Shown one piece after another: positions 4,445 through 11,469 of a stretch of DNA of 64,000 nucleotides (the stretch's first letter is position 1; every line of letters starts with the position of its first letter). The notes below the pieces were generated by a model that was not told the origin of the DNA, searched no databases, and saw only the letters and a program-made list of their open reading frames with translations. Both the position numbers and the translations under genes were made by a program. Source of the stretch: Bacteroidota bacterium (GTDB taxonomy: Bacteria; Bacteroidota; Bacteroidia; Flavobacteriales; Schleiferiaceae); the NCBI GenBank assembly GCA_024742495.1, contig JANSYJ010000003.1, positions 124,001-188,000 of the forward strand, in the 5' to 3' direction.

Positions 4445-4477
4445 AAAACCGCCTCCTTAAAAGGAAGCGGTTTTTTT
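4445..4477. terminator. bidirectional terminator between DinB-like and first LruC gene
   Basis: A 14-bp stem with one mismatch (4445-4458 with 4461-4474), followed on the plus strand by seven T (4471-4477). On the minus strand the stem is followed by TTTTCATTTT, so it can serve both convergent genes. Confidence 0.85.
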
Positions 4478-4501: not shown

Positions 4502-6223
4502 TTAGTTTGTAAGGTCAATTACGTTGCCTATGCTTGGTGTTTGATACCAGTCGGCATTGCTACTTCCGCCACTAGAAGCCCAAATACTAAATTGAGGGTA
4601 GGCCGTAATCATATCCGTTTTCTCGTAAGGGTGTTCAAAGCTGCTTCCTTCAGGAAGTATGAGCTCCATTCCCCAGGGTAGTCCATTGGTGGTTAGGAAG
4701 CTTCCATTCACGTCATCGCCAGTGTTATTGCGACTAGCATCGGCTTTGGAAGTTCCAGCAAAACCAGGAAGGTGCACCTCCAAAGTTCGATCTAGGGTTT
4801 GAAAGATGTAAAAATCTGGAATAAAGGCAGTACCATTATTATTGCCAAAAGTTATGGTAAAGCGTGCTGTGTCTGGCGTGGCGAATAAACCATTTTCGGT
4901 ATTGGTATAATAGTCGCTACGAATCGCATCGGGATCAGAGAATACAATTATACCGTTAGTTACATCAGGGTCTAAACTTGCATCCCCGCTCACACTAATA
5001 TTCATATTATTCATAGTGGCTTTGTTGCCATCTACTAATTGAATTGCTAATCCATTTTCGATACCACCACCAAAGGCGTCTAATGCAATTTCTACTTCTG
5101 CAGAAACCCAATTGTTACTAGCATCTTGAATTAAAGTCATTTTGCTATTTACAATCATGTCATTAAAGTCGTAGTCACCTTTTACCGGCCACATGTCTTC
5201 AAAGGCAATCGTTTGACGACCGCTATTAGGATAGTAGCTTAAGTAAGCTTTAGTAGCATCATTGGGGAAGTCATCTTGATCGTCGGCAACACCATCTCCA
5301 TCGGCATCTGTAACAGCCGGAGTATTGCTGAAATAAGCATTATCGATCCAAGTGTTATTATAAATGTAAAACAGTCCACTGGCAACGGTTGCGCCTGCTG
5401 GAACCACCATCTGTACGCCATTGGCATCACTATTAAGATCAACTCTGCGATAGCTCGACCAGCTGGAAGAATTTTGATGCTGCCAAAAGAATACGTAGGC
5501 GTAAGCAAATGCGCCATTAAAATCGGCAGTTAAGAAAATACTATCACCCGGGCTAACGGTATGATTTTGCCAGAAGTAGGTGTATTCGCCATTGTCTGCC
5601 TTAATAACGGTGGAGCCATTAACCGTAGGTTGACTAAAATCCGCATCAATGGTTTTCCATTGAGTATTATTTACGCCGCTATTATAGGGTGAGAATGGAC
5701 CTACGCTTTGGTTTGAAGCGGGAATCGCTGTTTCAAAACCTGGATTGGCCAGAAGGTTAGCACTTGCCATTGAGGCTTTTGCTCTGCGAATATTTCCTTT
5801 CGCTTTAAAAGAGTTAAGATCAGTGATATCGAAGGGATCACTCAGGGCGAGGTTTACTTTGTTTTTAACTTCTAATGGCCAGTATTCCTTTGTGGCGGTT
5901 AAATAGAATTGATATCCCTCCGACATGCTAGGCAGGGCCACATTAATTCGCGCTTTATCATCTTTTACAAGCGAACGAGCTACACGCTGATTACTCGCAT
6001 CAACTACCCACAGTTCGCTTCCTTGTAATTCAATATCGCGATTTAGGCTTTTATCAAAACTAACTTCGATATAGTCGGAAAGGCTATTGCTCCATTCAAA
6101 ATTAGATGGAACCACCAATTCGTCAAAGCTTTGCGCTACGGGTGCATCTTGATTGCTATCCTCATCTTGAGAACAAGCTGCGAACAACAAAGCTGTTGCT
6201 AAAATGAAAATTGACTTTTTCAT
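4502..6223 (-). CDS. LruC-domain lipoprotein, copy 1
   Basis: A 573-residue predicted lipoprotein. The signal peptide ends at a lipobox (LFAAC, Cys17), followed by SQDEDSN, an acidic stretch like the Bacteroidota lipoprotein export signal for surface display. Residues about 30-135 form an N-terminal beta domain. Residues about 155-300 begin NPGFE and end WIDNAYF, like a carbohydrate-binding jelly-roll. A calcium-loop-like segment follows (DADGDGVADDQDDFPND, about 306-322), then the LruC/DUF4842 domain (about 323-573), recognised by the SGRQTIAFEDMWP and GDYDFNDM motifs. LruC was first named from a Leptospira lipoprotein; its function is unknown. It is the last of three tandem paralogues, each with its own 3' hairpin, so they are probably separate transcripts. 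Confidence 0.88.
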   Translation of the reverse strand: MKKSIFILATALLFAACSQDEDSNQDAPVAQSFDELVVPSNFEWSNSLSDYIEVSFDKSLNRDIELQGSELWVVDASNQRVARSLVKDDKARINVALPSMSEGYQFYLTATKEYWPLEVKNKVNLALSDPFDITDLNSFKAKGNIRRAKASMASANLLANPGFETAIPASNQSVGPFSPYNSGVNNTQWKTIDADFSQPTVNGSTVIKADNGEYTYFWQNHTVSPGDSIFLTADFNGAFAYAYVFFWQHQNSSSWSSYRRVDLNSDANGVQMVVPAGATVASGLFYIYNNTWIDNAYFSNTPAVTDADGDGVADDQDDFPNDATKAYLSYYPNSGRQTIAFEDMWPVKGDYDFNDMIVNSKMTLIQDASNNWVSAEVEIALDAFGGGIENGLAIQLVDGNKATMNNMNISVSGDASLDPDVTNGIIVFSDPDAIRSDYYTNTENGLFATPDTARFTITFGNNNGTAFIPDFYIFQTLDRTLEVHLPGFAGTSKADASRNNTGDDVNGSFLTTNGLPWGMELILPEGSSFEHPYEKTDMITAYPQFSIWASSGGSSNADWYQTPSIGNVIDLTN

Positions 6224-6255
6224 GACTCAATATCTTTTGGTTGACGATTTAAAAG

Positions 6256-6266
6256 TCGATAAACCG
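6256..6266 (-). promoter_or_regulatory. motif shared upstream of LruC genes (copy 1)
   Basis: TCGATAAACCG on the plus strand (CGGTTTATCGA on the coding strand), 33 nt upstream of the copy 1 ATG. Near-identical 11-mers lie upstream of the other two LruC genes. A shared operator or promoter part is inferred. Confidence 0.4.
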
Positions 6267-6449
6267 ATTCTTAAAGCATCAAGTATTTCGTTGAAGCGTT
6301 AAAAATCATAGACCTTCAGCGCTCCTTACTATATATTCCTAATTGTGAGATAAATATGGATCCAAAACTGGTATCCAATCCCATTGTCCTTCCGTATACG
6401 AAATTAGTAAATTGTTGTAAGCCAATGACATTGAAAGGAGTATAAAAGG

Positions 6450-6491
6450 AAAAGGTAAAAGCTCCGAGCGTTTAGGGAGCTTTTACCTTTT
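6450..6491 (-). terminator. terminator after LruC copy 2
   Basis: A perfect 16-bp stem (6450-6465 with 6476-6491) with a 9-nt loop. On the minus strand the stem ends ACCTTTT and runs into CCTTTTA, downstream of the copy 2 stop. Confidence 0.85.
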
Positions 6492-6502
6492 GTTATGGGA
6501 AT

Positions 6503-6523
6503 AGCCCCAGCAATGCCGGGGCT
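6503..6523 (-). other. small GC-rich hairpin in the 3' region of LruC copy 2
   Basis: AGCCCC (6503-6508) pairs with GGGGCT (6518-6523). It sits between the copy 2 stop and its terminator and may protect the mRNA 3' end. Confidence 0.4.
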
Positions 6524-6548
6524 TCCATTTGGTTGTTGTTAGGGCTTA

Positions 6549-8273
6549 TTAAAGTCCTAGGTCTACGAGGTTTCCGAGTATCCCGTTTAAATACCAATCG
6601 CTATTGCTAGCACCGCCGCTGGCGGCCCAAGCTGAGAATTGAGGATAAGCCGAAATCATATCAATTTTTTCGTAAGGGTGTTTAAAGCTAGTTCCTTCTG
6701 GTAATACAAGCTCCATCCCCCATGGAAGACCAGTTACCGTTTGGTAGCTTCCATTTACATCATCACCAGTGTTGTATAGGCTGGCATCCGCCTGAGAAGT
6801 TCCGCTAAAACCTGGAAGATGTACTTCAACTCCACGATCTTCAGTTTGGAAGATGTAAAAATCTGGAATGAAAGATGTTCCGTTATTAGAGCCGAAGTTA
6901 ATGGTAAAGCGTACCGTATCTGGAGTGGCCATTAAACCTGCTTCTGTATTGGTATAATAGCTACTGCGCTTCTCATCTGGATCAGAGAAAACAATAATTC
7001 CATTGTTTACATTGGGATCTAAACTAGCATCTCCACTCACGCTAATATTCATACTGCTCATGGCTGCTTTGCTTCCATTTACTAGCTGAATGGCTAATCC
7101 ATTTTCAATGCCACCACCAAAGGCGTCTAAGGCTAATTCAACTTCTGCAGAAACCCATTCGTTGGCAGCATTTTTCACTAAGGTCATTTTACTATTTATA
7201 ATTACATCGTTGAAGTCGTAATCGCCACGAATTGGCCACATATCTTCAAATGCAATAGTCTGACGACCGCTGTTAGGGTAGTAGCTTAAATAAGCTTTGC
7301 TAGGGTCATTCGGGAAATCATCCTGATCATCAGAAACTCCATCTCCATCCGCATCAGTAACTGCCGGGCTGTTGCTGTAAAATGCATTATCAACCCATTG
7401 GCCATTTCCAAGGTAAAACAATCCTGTTGCTACGGTGGCACCATTTGGAACAATGGTAGCTACTCCTTCAGGGAAACTGTTAAGATCCACACGTTGGTAG
7501 CTTAACCAACTGGAAGAATTTTGATTGGCAAAGAAGAATACATATACGTAGCTAAAAGAGCTTCCACCAGTTTCGGCATTAATAAAAATGCTATCGCCAG
7601 CACTAACGCTATGATTTTGCCAAAACCAATTGCTACCGGTGGCTTTAAAGCCTAAAGTTCCGTTTACATTGGTTTGAGTAAACTTATTGGTATATGTCTT
7701 CCATTGGTTATTTAAACCGCTATGGTAAGGCATAAAGGTGTTACCCACGGCAATGTTTGAATTTAGGATTGTGGTTTCAAAATCGCTGTTAGCAAAGGCA
7801 TTGATCCCACTCATGTTTGCCTGCTTCATACGATTTTTACCTAGGGCTCTTTTAGAAAAGGCCGCGCTTTCAAGATCAAAAGGATCACTAAGGCTTAAGC
7901 TTACTTTTTCAGAAACTTCTAAAGGCCAAAACTCTCCAGTCGCCGGAAGGTGAAATTGATATCCACTGGCTGATGCCGGAAGGCTAATATTAAATTCTGC
8001 CTTATTGGATTTAATAATTTCTCTAGCAATGCGATCACCAGTTGAGTTTAAAATTAAAATCTCTGCTCCCTGGAGCTCGATGTCTTTATGCAAGTTCTTA
8101 TCAAATTGAACTTCCATGTTTGCAGAAATACTGTTACTCCAATTAAAGTTGCTTGGTGCAACAAGCTCATTAAAGTTCTGAGCCATTGGGGCTGCAGCAA
8201 CAACTTCTTCGGTGTCATTAGAACAGGAGGCCAAAACGAGACCTGCTGAAATAAGGGTGATTAATTTTTTCAT
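6549..8273 (-). CDS. LruC-domain lipoprotein, copy 2
   Basis: A 574-residue paralogue of the neighbouring genes with the same architecture: lipobox LVLASC (Cys16) followed by SNDTEE, an N-terminal beta domain, a jelly-roll-like region starting near FANSDFET, a DADGDGVSDDQDDFPND calcium-type loop, and the LruC domain with GRQTIAFEDMWP and GDYDFNDV. By eye the C-terminal half is nearly identical to copy 1 apart from scattered substitutions, while the N-terminal half has diverged clearly. That suggests duplication with constraint mainly on the LruC domain. Probably an outer-membrane surface lipoprotein. The upstream region carries TCGATAAGCCG at 8339-8349. Confidence 0.88.
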   Translation of the reverse strand: MKKLITLISAGLVLASCSNDTEEVVAAAPMAQNFNELVAPSNFNWSNSISANMEVQFDKNLHKDIELQGAEILILNSTGDRIAREIIKSNKAEFNISLPASASGYQFHLPATGEFWPLEVSEKVSLSLSDPFDLESAAFSKRALGKNRMKQANMSGINAFANSDFETTILNSNIAVGNTFMPYHSGLNNQWKTYTNKFTQTNVNGTLGFKATGSNWFWQNHSVSAGDSIFINAETGGSSFSYVYVFFFANQNSSSWLSYQRVDLNSFPEGVATIVPNGATVATGLFYLGNGQWVDNAFYSNSPAVTDADGDGVSDDQDDFPNDPSKAYLSYYPNSGRQTIAFEDMWPIRGDYDFNDVIINSKMTLVKNAANEWVSAEVELALDAFGGGIENGLAIQLVNGSKAAMSSMNISVSGDASLDPNVNNGIIVFSDPDEKRSSYYTNTEAGLMATPDTVRFTINFGSNNGTSFIPDFYIFQTEDRGVEVHLPGFSGTSQADASLYNTGDDVNGSYQTVTGLPWGMELVLPEGTSFKHPYEKIDMISAYPQFSAWAASGGASNSDWYLNGILGNLVDLGL

Positions 8274-8338
8274 AACGCTCTATATCTTTTGTTTGAATAC
8301 TCAAATGTCTATTTTTCAGGGTCTAGGGCTGTAATAAA

Positions 8339-8349
8339 TCGATAAGCCG
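8339..8349 (-). promoter_or_regulatory. motif shared upstream of LruC genes (copy 2)
   Basis: TCGATAAGCCG, 66 nt upstream of the copy 2 ATG. It differs by one base from the copy 1 motif. Flanking sequence is not conserved, which argues against simple recent duplication. Confidence 0.4.
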
Positions 8350-8454
8350 TCGAAATGTTAAGATGAAAGGTATTTTGATGCGTTTTCGCTTAGGTATAAG
8401 GACCAATCCTGCCAATGAAATAGCTAGTGCTCTGTATTTCAGTGTAAAAGAAAA

Positions 8455-8478
8455 GAGCCCCCTTGTGAAAGAGGGCTC
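8455..8478 (-). terminator. terminator after LruC copy 3
   Basis: GAGCCC (8455-8460) pairs with the complementary arm near 8473-8478 around a pyrimidine/purine inner stem. On the minus strand the stem runs into CTCTTTTCTTTT. Confidence 0.78.
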
Positions 8479-8503
8479 CTTAATGGATAATCAATAAAAG
8501 TCT

Positions 8504-10219
8504 TTACAGCAGGAGATCTACAATATCTCCTAGAGTTGGGTTTTGATACCAATCTGTATTAGCACTGCCGCCGCTGCTTGCCCAATTGCTAAATTGGGGA
8601 TAGGCGCTAATCATGTCAATTTTCTCGTAAGGGTGCTGAAAGTTTTCTCCATCGAGCACTAAATCCATTGCCCAAGGTAAACCGTTAACGGTTTGGTAGC
8701 TGCCATTTACATCATCGCCGGTATTATTCAAACTTGCATCTGCCGCGGCAGTTCCGGAAAAACCAACTAAGTGAACTTCGCGACCTCTTTCTTCTCTATG
8801 AAAGATGTAGAAATCTGGGCTAAATGCTGCTCCATTATTTGCTCCAAAGTTGATGGTGAAGCTAATCGTGTCTGGTGTGCGAATTAAACCGGCCTCGGTA
8901 TTATTATAATATTGGGAACGCACGTCATCAGGATCGTTAAATATGATGATGCCATTTGTTACATCTTGATCTAAACTGGCATTTCCGCTTACTGAAGAAA
9001 TAATACTGGACATAGTGTTCTTATTGCCATCAAGTAGGCGAAGCGCCAAGCCGCTTTCAATTCCACCACCAAAGGCGTCGAGGGCAATTTTATACTCTGC
9101 CGATACCCAATTTCCAGAGGCATCCTTTATAAGGTCAGCTTCTATGCTTACCACCATATCATTAAAGTCATAGTCGCCTTGTACCGGCCACATATCTTCA
9201 AAAGCTATTGTCTGACGACCAGCAGCAGGATAAAAGGTAAGGTAGGCACGGCTAGGGTCATTCGGGAAATCATCTTGATCATCCGCTACACCGTCGCCAT
9301 CGGTATCAGTAATAGCAGGGGGATTGCTTAAAAAGGTATTATCAATCCAGGCATTATCTCTTAAATTAAATAAGGCTGAAACTACGGTGGCATTTTGAGG
9401 TACTATAGAACTTATTACGTCACTGCCTGCTGCGAAGGGAATATACTCGTAAGATATTGGACTGGTAGAATTAGCATCAGCATAAAAGAAGAGGTAGGCT
9501 CTAGTGGTACCATCCCAGTCGGCAGTGATATGGATGCTATCACCCGGATTTACCGTATGTAGTTGCCATAAGTGTGTCCAACGGTTAGCAGCGGCTTTAA
9601 AAACGGTTGATCCGTTTTCGGTAGCAGCATTCCAATCGTTATCAGCCACATACCACTTTCCGTCATCTACCGTTCCGGTGGTTGGATCATAAGGGTAACC
9701 TTGGTTGCTATAAACAATGTTGTTTTCAAAGCCGGCATTGCCAAACATATTGGTACCGGGAGGATTTGCCATGGCGCCTTTAGCCAGCGTCGTTTTGGCA
9801 TTGAGGTTAAGATTATCTAAAGGCTCTTGTAGATTAAGTTCCACTTGTTCGCTTAATTCCAATGGCCATTCCTCACCAGTTGCAGGTAAGCTAAATTTAT
9901 AGCCTTGAGGATTGCTAGGCAAAGTAATGTTGAAGGATGCTTTATGGGCAGCGTTGATTTTTTCAATCGCCACGCGCTCGCCAGCAGCATTAATTATATA
10001 AATGAAAGATCCATCTAAACTTAATGGAAGTAGTTCAGGAACTTTAAGGCTAATTTCAATCTGAGCTTTTTCGCCAGCAGTCCAATTAAAATCAACGGGC
10101 ACAGTTAGTTCACTAAAATTAGTAGCTGCTGCTGGGGCTTGAGTACTATTCTCATCCTTCTGGCAAGAGGCCAAAACTAAGTAGAGGGCTAGGAGGGAGG
10201 CTGCTTTTTTCATATCCAT
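8504..10219 (-). CDS. LruC-domain lipoprotein, copy 3
   Basis: A 571-residue paralogue, the most diverged of the three. Two in-frame ATGs lie 6 nt apart (10219 and 10213); the second gives the more typical MKKAASLL signal start. The lipobox LVLASC is followed by QKDENS, matching the acidic export-signal pattern. The jelly-roll-like region starts near FGNAGFEN and ends WIDNTFL. Then come a DTDGDGVADDQDDFPND loop and the LruC domain with GRQTIAFEDMWP and GDYDFNDM. No catalytic residues are evident; a binding or adhesive surface role is inferred only from the architecture. The shared upstream motif is at 10271-10281. Confidence 0.88.
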   Translation of the reverse strand: MDMKKAASLLALYLVLASCQKDENSTQAPAAATNFSELTVPVDFNWTAGEKAQIEISLKVPELLPLSLDGSFIYIINAAGERVAIEKINAAHKASFNITLPSNPQGYKFSLPATGEEWPLELSEQVELNLQEPLDNLNLNAKTTLAKGAMANPPGTNMFGNAGFENNIVYSNQGYPYDPTTGTVDDGKWYVADNDWNAATENGSTVFKAAANRWTHLWQLHTVNPGDSIHITADWDGTTRAYLFFYADANSTSPISYEYIPFAAGSDVISSIVPQNATVVSALFNLRDNAWIDNTFLSNPPAITDTDGDGVADDQDDFPNDPSRAYLTFYPAAGRQTIAFEDMWPVQGDYDFNDMVVSIEADLIKDASGNWVSAEYKIALDAFGGGIESGLALRLLDGNKNTMSSIISSVSGNASLDQDVTNGIIIFNDPDDVRSQYYNNTEAGLIRTPDTISFTINFGANNGAAFSPDFYIFHREERGREVHLVGFSGTAAADASLNNTGDDVNGSYQTVNGLPWAMDLVLDGENFQHPYEKIDMISAYPQFSNWASSGGSANTDWYQNPTLGDIVDLLL

Positions 10220-10270: not shown

Positions 10271-10281
10271 TCGATAAACGG
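10271..10281 (-). promoter_or_regulatory. motif shared upstream of LruC genes (copy 3)
   Basis: TCGATAAACGG, about 52 nt upstream of the copy 3 start. The consensus over the three copies is TCGATAA(A/G)C(C/G)G. Confidence 0.4.
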
Positions 10282-10312
10282 TAATTTTGAATAGATTTAT
10301 TGAATCGGAAAC

Positions 10313-10357
10313 AAAAAAAAGCCGGACAAAACCTCTGATGAGGTGCATCCGGCTTTT
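10313..10357 (-). terminator. rho-independent terminator after the fasciclin gene
   Basis: The outer stem AAAAGCCGGA / TCCGGCTTTT encloses an inner CCTC/GAGG hairpin. On the minus strand it is followed by eight T. It lies about 100 nt past the fasciclin stop. Confidence 0.9.
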
Positions 10358-10455
10358 CAACCAACCAAACAAAACTATTACTCCTATTAAAGGACCTAGC
10401 TAATAATGCGCTAGGGTTTCCTAGTAAACTCCATTTGGAGTCGAGTCGTATATCG

Positions 10456-11433
10456 TTAAGGAAGTTTTAACACTTCGTCTATTATGTTTAAGCTACCATT
10501 GAAGGAGCTAATATCAGTAAGCAAAACATGTGCCGATTTAGCATTAGCCAAACCATTGCGTTGCACCAATATATTTCCATCTTCTAGGTAAATGTTTAAG
10601 CCAGCATTTAGGGCTAAACTGCTTTGCTGAGAGCCCACCAATTGACTTAATTTATGAGAGCCAGTAATTAAATGCGCTTCTATGAGCTCCTTTAATTTTA
10701 AGACCCCAAATTCTTCTATATAACCATCTAGGTCGCCACAGTCTTTGGCCTGGAAGAAGGCATCAAAGGCTTGATCATTAGGTGCTAAAAATGTAAATTT
10801 AGATTGATCATTATTTAGCATAGAAGCCAAATTGGATACGCGCAAAGCTCTTTCTAATATCGAAAAATTAGCCATATTAGAGCGCACAAGCTTACTTAAA
10901 GTAGAAGGATACAAGACCTGATCAATACTATGTATTATGCCAGATGATAATTCGAGATCCTTTTCGCCGACGGTAATCCATTGCCCATTAATACGCAGTA
11001 ATCCTTTATTATGCAAAAGGTGCAGATAGATATCTTGGTTTTCAGAATTCTTTGCTAGAGTTGGAACAAAGGCTGTACGTAAATTCTCCACCTTAACGGC
11101 TTGAGGTAAGATATGTGAACCTAACCAGGCATTGTAGTAAGTTGCTCCAATGTTCTGTTTTACCTCGCTAAAATCTTTAGCATTTAAATCGATGAGAAAC
11201 TGATTTAAGGCATCTTCACCGGGCACTAAAAGTGTAAACTCCTGTCCATTTAAATCAATGTCGCTACATGCCAAAGCATCAAGGAAAAGTTGATTTTGGG
11301 TTTTGTCCAAAATCTGTTCTTCCAAGCTTGGAGCCACCTGTACCAGAGGTACTGCATCATCTTTTGCGCAGGACCCCAGAATAAATAGGAGACAGAGTAT
11401 TTTTAAGGATCGCATCATTAACTTGTTCTTCAT
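10456..11433 (-). CDS. two-domain fasciclin (FAS1) lipoprotein
   Basis: A lipoprotein of about 325 residues. The start is uncertain: an ATG at 11451 also reads through, but ATGs at 11433 and 11415 give more normal signal peptides ending at the lipobox ILGSC, followed by AKDDAV (acidic export-signal type). The mature part holds two FAS1 repeats. Each has the H1 and H2 family motifs, FLDALACSDIDLNGQEFTLL-type in the first and SKFTFLAPNDQAFDAF in the second. Each ends in a short hydrophobic IIHSIDQVLYP or LNIIDEVLKLP strand. FAS1 domains mediate adhesion and matrix binding. The gene is divergent from the orphan ABC ATPase, only 36 nt away, and lies beside the LruC cluster, which suggests a shared surface theme. 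Confidence 0.85.
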   Translation of the reverse strand: MKNKLMMRSLKILCLLFILGSCAKDDAVPLVQVAPSLEEQILDKTQNQLFLDALACSDIDLNGQEFTLLVPGEDALNQFLIDLNAKDFSEVKQNIGATYYNAWLGSHILPQAVKVENLRTAFVPTLAKNSENQDIYLHLLHNKGLLRINGQWITVGEKDLELSSGIIHSIDQVLYPSTLSKLVRSNMANFSILERALRVSNLASMLNNDQSKFTFLAPNDQAFDAFFQAKDCGDLDGYIEEFGVLKLKELIEAHLITGSHKLSQLVGSQQSSLALNAGLNIYLEDGNILVQRNGLANAKSAHVLLTDISSFNGSLNIIDEVLKLP

Positions 11434-11469
11434 TAAAGGAACGATAAACATGCCCTTAAGGTTTGGTAT

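Follow-up and report, generated by a model that had tools for sequence, protein, structure and literature searches.

Why does a member of the Bacteroidota carry, side by side, three lipoprotein genes that end in the same domain? The question is raised by a 64,000-nucleotide stretch of DNA (the window) from a bacterium of the family Schleiferiaceae (assembly GCA_024742495.1, contig JANSYJ010000003.1, positions 124,001 to 188,000), in which three minus-strand genes encode proteins of 573, 574 and 571 residues with a C-terminal LruC domain. We propose that these are surface glycan-binding lipoproteins of two binding types, with a common LruC end and partly shared control of the LytTR type, a reading that, taken whole, we hold with about even confidence. 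A first, sequence-only reading of the locus had described adjacent same-strand genes of 571-574 residues with one order of parts; the open reading frames (ORFs) bear out both coordinates and lengths, and all copies do share the same succession of lipobox with acidic tail, N-terminal domain, middle domain, loop and LruC domain. The copies are numbered by position, so that transcription starts with copy 3, and their parts are as follows.

4502-6223, minus strand: copy 1, LruC-domain lipoprotein, 573 residues (ORF; TIGR04456 E 3.8e-50, 171.4 bits)
6549-8273, minus strand: copy 2, LruC-domain lipoprotein, 574 residues (ORF; TIGR04456 E 1.5e-52, 179.2 bits)
8504-10219, minus strand: copy 3, LruC-domain lipoprotein, 571 residues (ORF; TIGR04456 E 4.3e-50, 171.2 bits)
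6158-6223, minus strand: copy 1 putative signal peptide, lipobox FAAC and tail SQDED (by eye)
8208-8273, minus strand: copy 2 putative signal peptide, lipobox LASC and tail SNDTE (by eye; Pfam LPAM_1 below its cut-off)
10148-10219, minus strand: copy 3 putative signal peptide, lipobox LASC and tail QKDEN (by eye; fits C-X-K-(D/E)2-X)
5312-5776, minus strand: copy 1 middle domain, predicted jelly roll resembling carbohydrate-binding modules (CBMs) (AlphaFold2, predicted local distance difference test score (pLDDT) 71.8; Foldseek and VIA)
7359-7823, minus strand: copy 2 middle domain (alignment to copy 1)
9311-9778, minus strand: copy 3 middle domain (alignment to copy 1)
5258-5308, minus strand: copy 1 thrombospondin-type-3-like acidic loop (sequence and conservation)
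7305-7355, minus strand: copy 2 acidic loop (sequence and conservation)
9257-9307, minus strand: copy 3 acidic loop (sequence and conservation)
4541-5212, minus strand: copy 1 LruC domain, residues 338-561 (TIGR04456 profile match)
6591-7259, minus strand: copy 2 LruC domain, residues 339-561 (TIGR04456 profile match)
8543-9211, minus strand: copy 3 LruC domain, residues 337-559 (TIGR04456 profile match)

Membership in the LruC family is clear: all three copies lie far above the curated cut-off of TIGR04456 (36 bits), and copies 1, 2 and 3 score 130.6, 139.1 and 132.2 bits to DUF4842 (PF16130), which has a gathering cut-off of 22 bits. The acidic loop carries the calcium-type motif DxDGDGVxDDQDDFPND in every copy. 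Inspected by eye, all three also bear the acidic tail expected behind the lipobox; in copy 3 it is an exact match, C-Q-K-D-E, to the signal C-X-K-(D/E)2-X that directs lipoprotein surface export in Capnocytophaga (PMC5080379, from part of that paper), and in copies 1 and 2 it takes a polar-acidic form. A lipobox followed by this signal, or by a polar and acidic run, is the arrangement found in surface lipoproteins of Bacteroidota, and copies 1-3 are thus probably surface-facing lipoproteins.

The case for glycan binding begins with the middle domain, which the sequence-only reading had called jelly-roll-like and had proposed to compare with carbohydrate-binding modules. Modeled as a domain alone from five sequences, residues 150-304 of copy 1 are predicted to form a beta sandwich (predicted template modeling score 0.69 at the pLDDT listed above), and CBM families are among the best structural matches. 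The top Foldseek match is the CBM16 structure 2zey (E 1.6e-5, TM-score about 0.5), and the 37 matches at E <= 0.001 include CBM61, CBM4 and CBM6 as well as domains from toxins and tailspikes that share the fold. In VIA comparisons, where rows within 1 Z count as tied, the model reaches Z 11.5 to CBM16 2zew (129 residues, 3.3 A) and 10.7 to CBM61. A profile of 21 middle domains gave a weak match to 2ygl (E 2.7e-5, best single stretch 0.011), a fragment of a blood-group-cleaving endo-beta-galactosidase that we take to be a CBM51. A full-length structure computed from a 10-sequence alignment reached a pLDDT of only 47.6 and was not interpreted.

Several of these comparisons also weigh against a sugar-binding assignment. 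The model has a CBM-type jelly-roll fold and is tied with jelly rolls that are not CBMs: the CBM16 rows in VIA stand level with a phage tailspike (Z 11.6), Cry toxins and sugar-binding ubiquitin ligases, and Z values of 9.3-9.6 go to ephrin-receptor domains, which bind proteins. The Foldseek TM-scores are about 0.5 or lower, the 2ygl profile search goes on to list antibodies at E 0.01 and up, and no Pfam CBM is significant for any of the 21 middle domains, the best being CBM39 in one member at E 0.059. The likeness to CBM16, CBM61 and their kin therefore lies in predicted fold (VIA Z 10.7-11.5), while the sequences differ, with 12-18% identity to the CBM16 and CBM61 rows and no CBM_4_9 (PF02018) listed at E up to 5 in the 21 domains, in a search whose HMMER filters drop most matches above about 0.1. 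A shared fold by itself shows no function. The model supports a CBM-like jelly-roll fold for the middle domain and only suggests that it binds glycans.

How the copies have diverged bears on whether they do different jobs. The sequence-only reading saw near-identical C-terminal halves joined to N-terminal halves that had drifted, and took this as selection for a common core with variable ligands. The gradient is real: identity across the three pairs is 79, 70 and 70% in the C half and 55, 40 and 41% in the N half, and amino-acid differences (127/280 versus 58/270, 167/278 versus 81/269 and 164/276 versus 81/269, N versus C) differ significantly within each pair (Fisher p 3.4e-9 or less), so that divergence is not uniform along the proteins. 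"Near identical" overstates the case. Copies 1 and 2 share 66% of residues overall and copies 1 and 3 share 54%, and the proportion of synonymous sites that differ (pS) is 0.67-0.75 in the C halves and close to saturation, at 0.67-0.82, over both. With C halves only 70-79% identical and synonymous sites nearly saturated, the three copies are old paralogues.

The history of the slot can be followed in congeners. In the slot beside the DUF1569-like and fasciclin-like genes we find one copy in genome G005 (locus L051, neighbors matched by eye), two in G002 (locus L046) and three here (the source genome is G000; G001, G002, G003, G005 and G006 are among its congeners). A tree built on 34 LruC C-terminal regions, without L059 and the second genes of L049 and L060, places copies 1 and 2 with the second G002 gene (support 99/95); copy 3 falls with G002's first gene and with the lone copies found in G001, G003 and G005 (99/97). 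The split between a copy-1/2 type and a copy-3 type has 100% support from each of three domains, and the two types thus predate the parting of G000 and G002. In single-copy species the copy-1/2 type may never have been present or may have been lost. Gene conversion that homogenized the C halves was considered as well and is not apparent at the scale of whole domains: in the C-part tree the first G002 gene still falls with copy 3 (85%), and copies 1, 2 and the second G002 gene stay apart from the rest (100%).

Is the gradient then a mark of selection for new ligands? The ratio of nonsynonymous to synonymous divergence (dN/dS) for each half, proposed as a check, could be computed and proved unusable between copies: ratios of 0.03-0.48 by part were dropped, since dS is about 0.9-5 and pS 0.67-0.82. 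Because of this near-saturation we turned to a closer orthologue pair, G001 and G005, the only one with measurable dS, where dN/dS is about 0.03 in all parts, that is, strong purifying selection throughout. Among nine distant orthologue pairs within the copy-3 clade the N/C ratio of dN runs from 2.0 to 3.0; it is 1.9-2.9 in paralogue pairs and 1.5 in the close pair G001-G005. The gradient is equally strong between single-copy orthologues, and was therefore not caused by duplication.

These results lend weight to an account in which the copies do identical jobs, the N half merely tolerates change, as it does in all family members compared, and tandem duplication raises the amount of protein rather than its range; we consider it possible, and on balance doubtful. 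Besides the gradient shared with orthologues, it draws on the rates of the parts, estimated on a fixed tree in which copies 1 and 2 were set as sisters, a placement that is assumed and that the trees do not settle. The N half consists of two parts evolving at unlike rates, and tree lengths over three partitions (N domain 4.28, jelly roll 2.86, loop plus LruC 1.33) make the N domain, and not the binding-like domain, the fastest. Proportional branch lengths are preferred over separate ones by both the Akaike and the Bayesian information criterion (12011.5 versus 12013.2 and 12089.5 versus 12195.1), and type-specific fixed differences fall at 7/147 columns of the jelly roll, 1/127 of the N domain and 10/269 of the C part, leaving the jelly roll little richer than the C part. 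Set against this account, a likelihood-ratio test on the same fits gives p 0.004, so some rate heterogeneity remains and branch patterns are unequal, and the region upstream of copy 1 differs from those of the other copies. Measured against the N domain, moreover, the jelly roll has a relative rate of 0.49 within the copy-3 clade, against 1.05 on the stem that separates the types and 0.84 within the copy-1/2 clade, and this stem ranks above the copy-3 clade in 98/100 bootstraps against the N domain and 93/100 against the C part, in a comparison based on 8 sequences. What survives of the variable-ligand idea is thus a weaker signal, a modest relative speed-up of the jelly roll on the branch that separates the paralogue types; the overall gradient, being the same in orthologues, does not speak for it.

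The conserved C-terminal end offers a second line of evidence on what the proteins bind. A 14-row LruC profile found a single solved relative, 3oqq ("putative lipoprotein", E 5.7e-24), which we presume to be BACOVA_00967 of Bacteroides ovatus. DxDxDG, EDxWPxxGDxDxND and RxxExHL are invariant in the 14-row alignment; 3oqq shares the EDxWP...DFND and ExH motifs, and differs in that its match is restricted to the C-terminal region, the N half of the copies not being found in 3oqq. Leptospira LruC, LIC13086 and 3oqq, the closest known counterparts, are LruC-domain lipoproteins like the copies, in which the C-terminal TIGR04456/DUF4842 domain lies above the curated cut-offs. A plan in which a binding module precedes this same type of C-terminal domain is also known from ice-binding proteins of DUF3494-DUF4842 order (PMC9957290, in the part seen), in place of whose DUF3494 the copies carry the predicted jelly roll. 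A scan of this genome with PF11999 gave no match and was silent on its controls too, so the domain may still be present.

A link to sugars and calcium may run through DUF4114 (PF13448), which all 14 LruC regions scanned touch (best E 4.6e-6); the full copies score 27.9-28.5 bits and the C part of copy 1 alone 24.7, around a gathering cut-off of 27 bits. According to the portions of the literature available, a recombinant DUF4114 domain from an Acanthamoeba protein binds mannose-agarose (PMC11934332), and a putative Ca2+ residue is needed in the DUF4114 domain of Myxococcus PilY1.1. Weighing on the other side, the LruC-DUF4114 profile alignment spans the acidic motif only (probability 22%), and within the text seen of PMC8280789 the Leptospira DUF4842 lipoprotein LIC13086 showed no Ca2+ binding by circular dichroism and bound laminin rather than the glycosaminoglycans tried. 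A search of the DUF4114 profile against the PDB returned two unrelated chains (E 0.5-0.8) and was set aside. LIC13086, the one DUF4842 lipoprotein with binding tests covered here, binds plasma components too and speaks for adhesins whose jelly roll and LruC end bind proteins, of the matrix or of neighboring cells, instead of sugars, and protein-binding jelly rolls do score in VIA; the best structural matches are nevertheless mostly sugar-binding domains, for whatever a shared fold is worth, and we judge this alternative unlikely.

The remaining alternative is nutrient capture, with the copies as glycan-binding lipoproteins that assist an uptake system of SusCD type. Such a role would suit a Bacteroidota lipoprotein that is probably at the surface and has a CBM-like domain, yet is highly improbable, as contig C30, which holds the copies, has no SusD-family gene, the two SusD_RagB matches in the genome both lie on another contig (C22), and the flanking genes look like housekeeping genes (such as thrS, infC, rplT and mdh, identified from their translations by eye). 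The absence of a SusD gene near the copies is equally what sets the locus apart from a SusCD-type polysaccharide utilization locus, and counts against our own reading.

The copies belong to a larger family. The source genome holds nine DUF4842 matches; at least one occurs in 36/99 genomes, mostly of the same family and order, and in 18/296 genomes of a phylum-wide draw, the source genome being included in both counts. A second tandem pair of LruC lipoproteins lies at locus L073 (contig C12 of G000, 8059-10080 and 10393 onward; 674 and 676 residues), with DUF4114-type N parts (the first by Pfam, the second by motif). L072 and L071 (= L003 and L001) have, by eye, propeller-like and beta-helix-like N parts, and L071 has a Bactofilin match at E 0.046. 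In a further paralogue, L069, the middle slot carries a different sequence that by eye is DUF642-like and has no Pfam match; kinship between it and the jelly roll was considered and rejected (43 columns only, probability 21%). In the parts of the open-access literature covered, we found no description of this architecture or of the upstream element to which we now turn.

Upstream of copies 2 and 3 lie short direct repeats, scored out of 18 and counted from 13 upward, and upstream of copy 1 a single half-site.

8341-8371, minus strand: direct repeat ACCTTTCATC-N11-ACGGCTTATC, LytTR-like in form, before copy 2, 15/18
10273-10303, minus strand: direct repeat TCAATAAATC-N11-ACCGTTTATC before copy 3, one half good and the other weak, 14/18 at 21 bp
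6256-6266, minus strand: lone half-site CGGTTTATCGA before copy 1, where the best 21-bp pair reaches 11/18

The repeat, ACCnTTnATCG with a 21-bp period, stands at -84 to -98 before copies 2 and 3, as well as before four of the five slot genes in congeners. It resembles the LytTR binding sites described in the section seen of PMC6193735, 9-bp half-sites of ACC type that share one orientation and are set 12 bp apart, upstream of genes; it differs from them in its setting, the Flavobacteriales, and in half-sites that favor ACCnTTnAT followed by CG. The consensus was derived from ten upstream regions (the three copies, five congener genes, L069 and the fasciclin gene), so only genes added later count as independent.

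Overall, the repeat precedes 5/9 LruC genes and 0/140 other genes of the window and six own-genome loci (Fisher 2e-7), or 6/9 if L072, which was missed from an internal ATG, is scored from its longer start. In the congeners it occurs in 7/20 LruC rows against 0/100 other genes (Fisher 1e-6); 4 of those 20 rows are cut or internal fragments, and 2 of the 19 fetched regions (L210 and L216) gave no row. Independent own-genome genes reaching 13 are L072 and both genes of the L073 pair (3/5; 2e-5 against the 0/140 controls), with L070 and L071 staying below, and among independent congener genes a score of 13 is reached by G006 and one of 12 by L053, the second gene of G003. In all, many LruC genes of the genus have the repeat some 90-130 bp before them, and none of 240 control genes does. 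At other spacings the nine LruC genes gave 3 matches at 25, 2 each at 15, 16 and 26, 1 each at 19 and 24, and none at six others. Not everything fits: 3/9 own LruC genes lack the repeat, copy 1 among them, as does the second G002 gene, and the region upstream of copy 3 scores 15/18 elsewhere at 19-bp spacing, above its 14/18 at 21 bp. Among 12 LruC genes of other genera only one (G022b, at -135) reached 13.

The evidence for the repeat is its position before LruC genes, not its number in the genome. Genome-wide it is only mildly enriched when up to 3 mismatches are allowed (69 versus 48), and 5 of the 17 sites that have no more than 2 mismatches fall within other long reading frames. The 11-mer CSGYTTATCGA, which is part of this repeat, occurs without mismatch three times in the window, once before each copy, and is not enriched across the genome (15 versus 14 in a reversed control). 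Further sites precede secreted-looking proteins of 1320 and at least 1304 residues and one lipoprotein.

One of the strongest repeats of all (4864-4895 of L181, G000 C22:460500-468500) lies between the 1320-residue secreted-looking protein and a divergently transcribed LytTR response regulator, one of 11 LytTR matches in the genome. This regulator gene is conserved in all seven genomes of the genus, the six others being 88-96% identical over the first 110 residues; the adjacent repeat is oriented toward the divergent gene for the secreted protein, and is strong (16) only in G000 and G002, with weak scores of 10-12 in the other five. Its product is a regulator candidate only. From sequence and position together, the LytTR-form repeat marks out a possible regulon of LruC genes. 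In other genera of the family a different element was observed, a TTCCC-N5-GGGAA palindrome at -114 to -141 of 7/12 LruC genes against 3/108 controls (9/12 against 20/108 at a looser threshold), a pattern derived from those same 12 genes; it is found at L047, L048, L054, L056, L057 and L065, and L071 of the source genome carries it too.

A broader possibility would join these observations: a LytTR-type regulator may switch a whole set of LruC lipoproteins, in which LruC would be a common calcium-dependent end that engages glycans or self-assembles, and the module that lies between anchor and LruC domain would be exchanged or duplicated to change what the surface holds (CBM-like jelly roll, DUF642-like domain, beta-helix, propeller or DUF4114), the cluster in the window being one growing slot. 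We offer this tentatively, as rather improbable in its entirety.

The remaining features of the locus concern the expression of the three copies.

4445-4474, minus strand: terminator-like hairpin 3' of copy 1 (hairpin scan)
6450-6491, minus strand: terminator-like hairpin 3' of copy 2, 16 pairs, 10-base loop (hairpin scan)
8452-8481, minus strand: terminator-like hairpin 3' of copy 3 (hairpin scan)

Stable hairpins stand behind all three copies, as the sequence-only reading had it, and the fasciclin gene upstream of copy 3 likewise ends in one (10316-10358), so each copy could form its own transcript. A scan for sigma-70-type promoters did no better than chance (21 found versus 18.7 expected). 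The fasciclin gene itself (10456-11451, minus strand) encodes a two-stretch lipoprotein, adjoins the LruC slot here and in the congeners G002 and G005, and is a possible functional partner.

Returning to surface glycan-binding lipoproteins of two types, we suggest that the proteins would be held in the outer membrane by an N-terminal lipid, face outward and bind polysaccharide. Behind the anchor each would carry a fast-evolving, stalk-like N domain, followed by a CBM-like jelly roll, a calcium-type loop and, at the end, an LruC domain that evolves slowly. The slot would have expanded from one gene to two and then to three, with the jelly roll of the copy-1/2 type shifting around the first duplication; on the strength of that shift the glycans preferred by the two types probably differ, and the LruC end would do the same job in both. 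Control by a LytTR-type regulator is probable for copy 2 and for other LruC genes and likely for copy 3; copy 1 has one half-site only. Gene layout, domains, rates, the copy series and the enrichment of the repeat are direct results, from which surface exposure, glycan binding, a role for calcium and the regulator are inferred.

Taken by itself, this is a rather ordinary surface-protein cluster, and the LytTR-like element is a useful new lead. LruC/DUF4842 is a C-terminal domain of unknown function that, in the portion of the literature seen, figures mainly as a Leptospira antigen and as the tail of ice-binding proteins. With several LruC proteins per genome, a middle domain of sugar-binding appearance, a slot graded from one to two to three copies and a candidate regulatory element, the function of the domain becomes testable.

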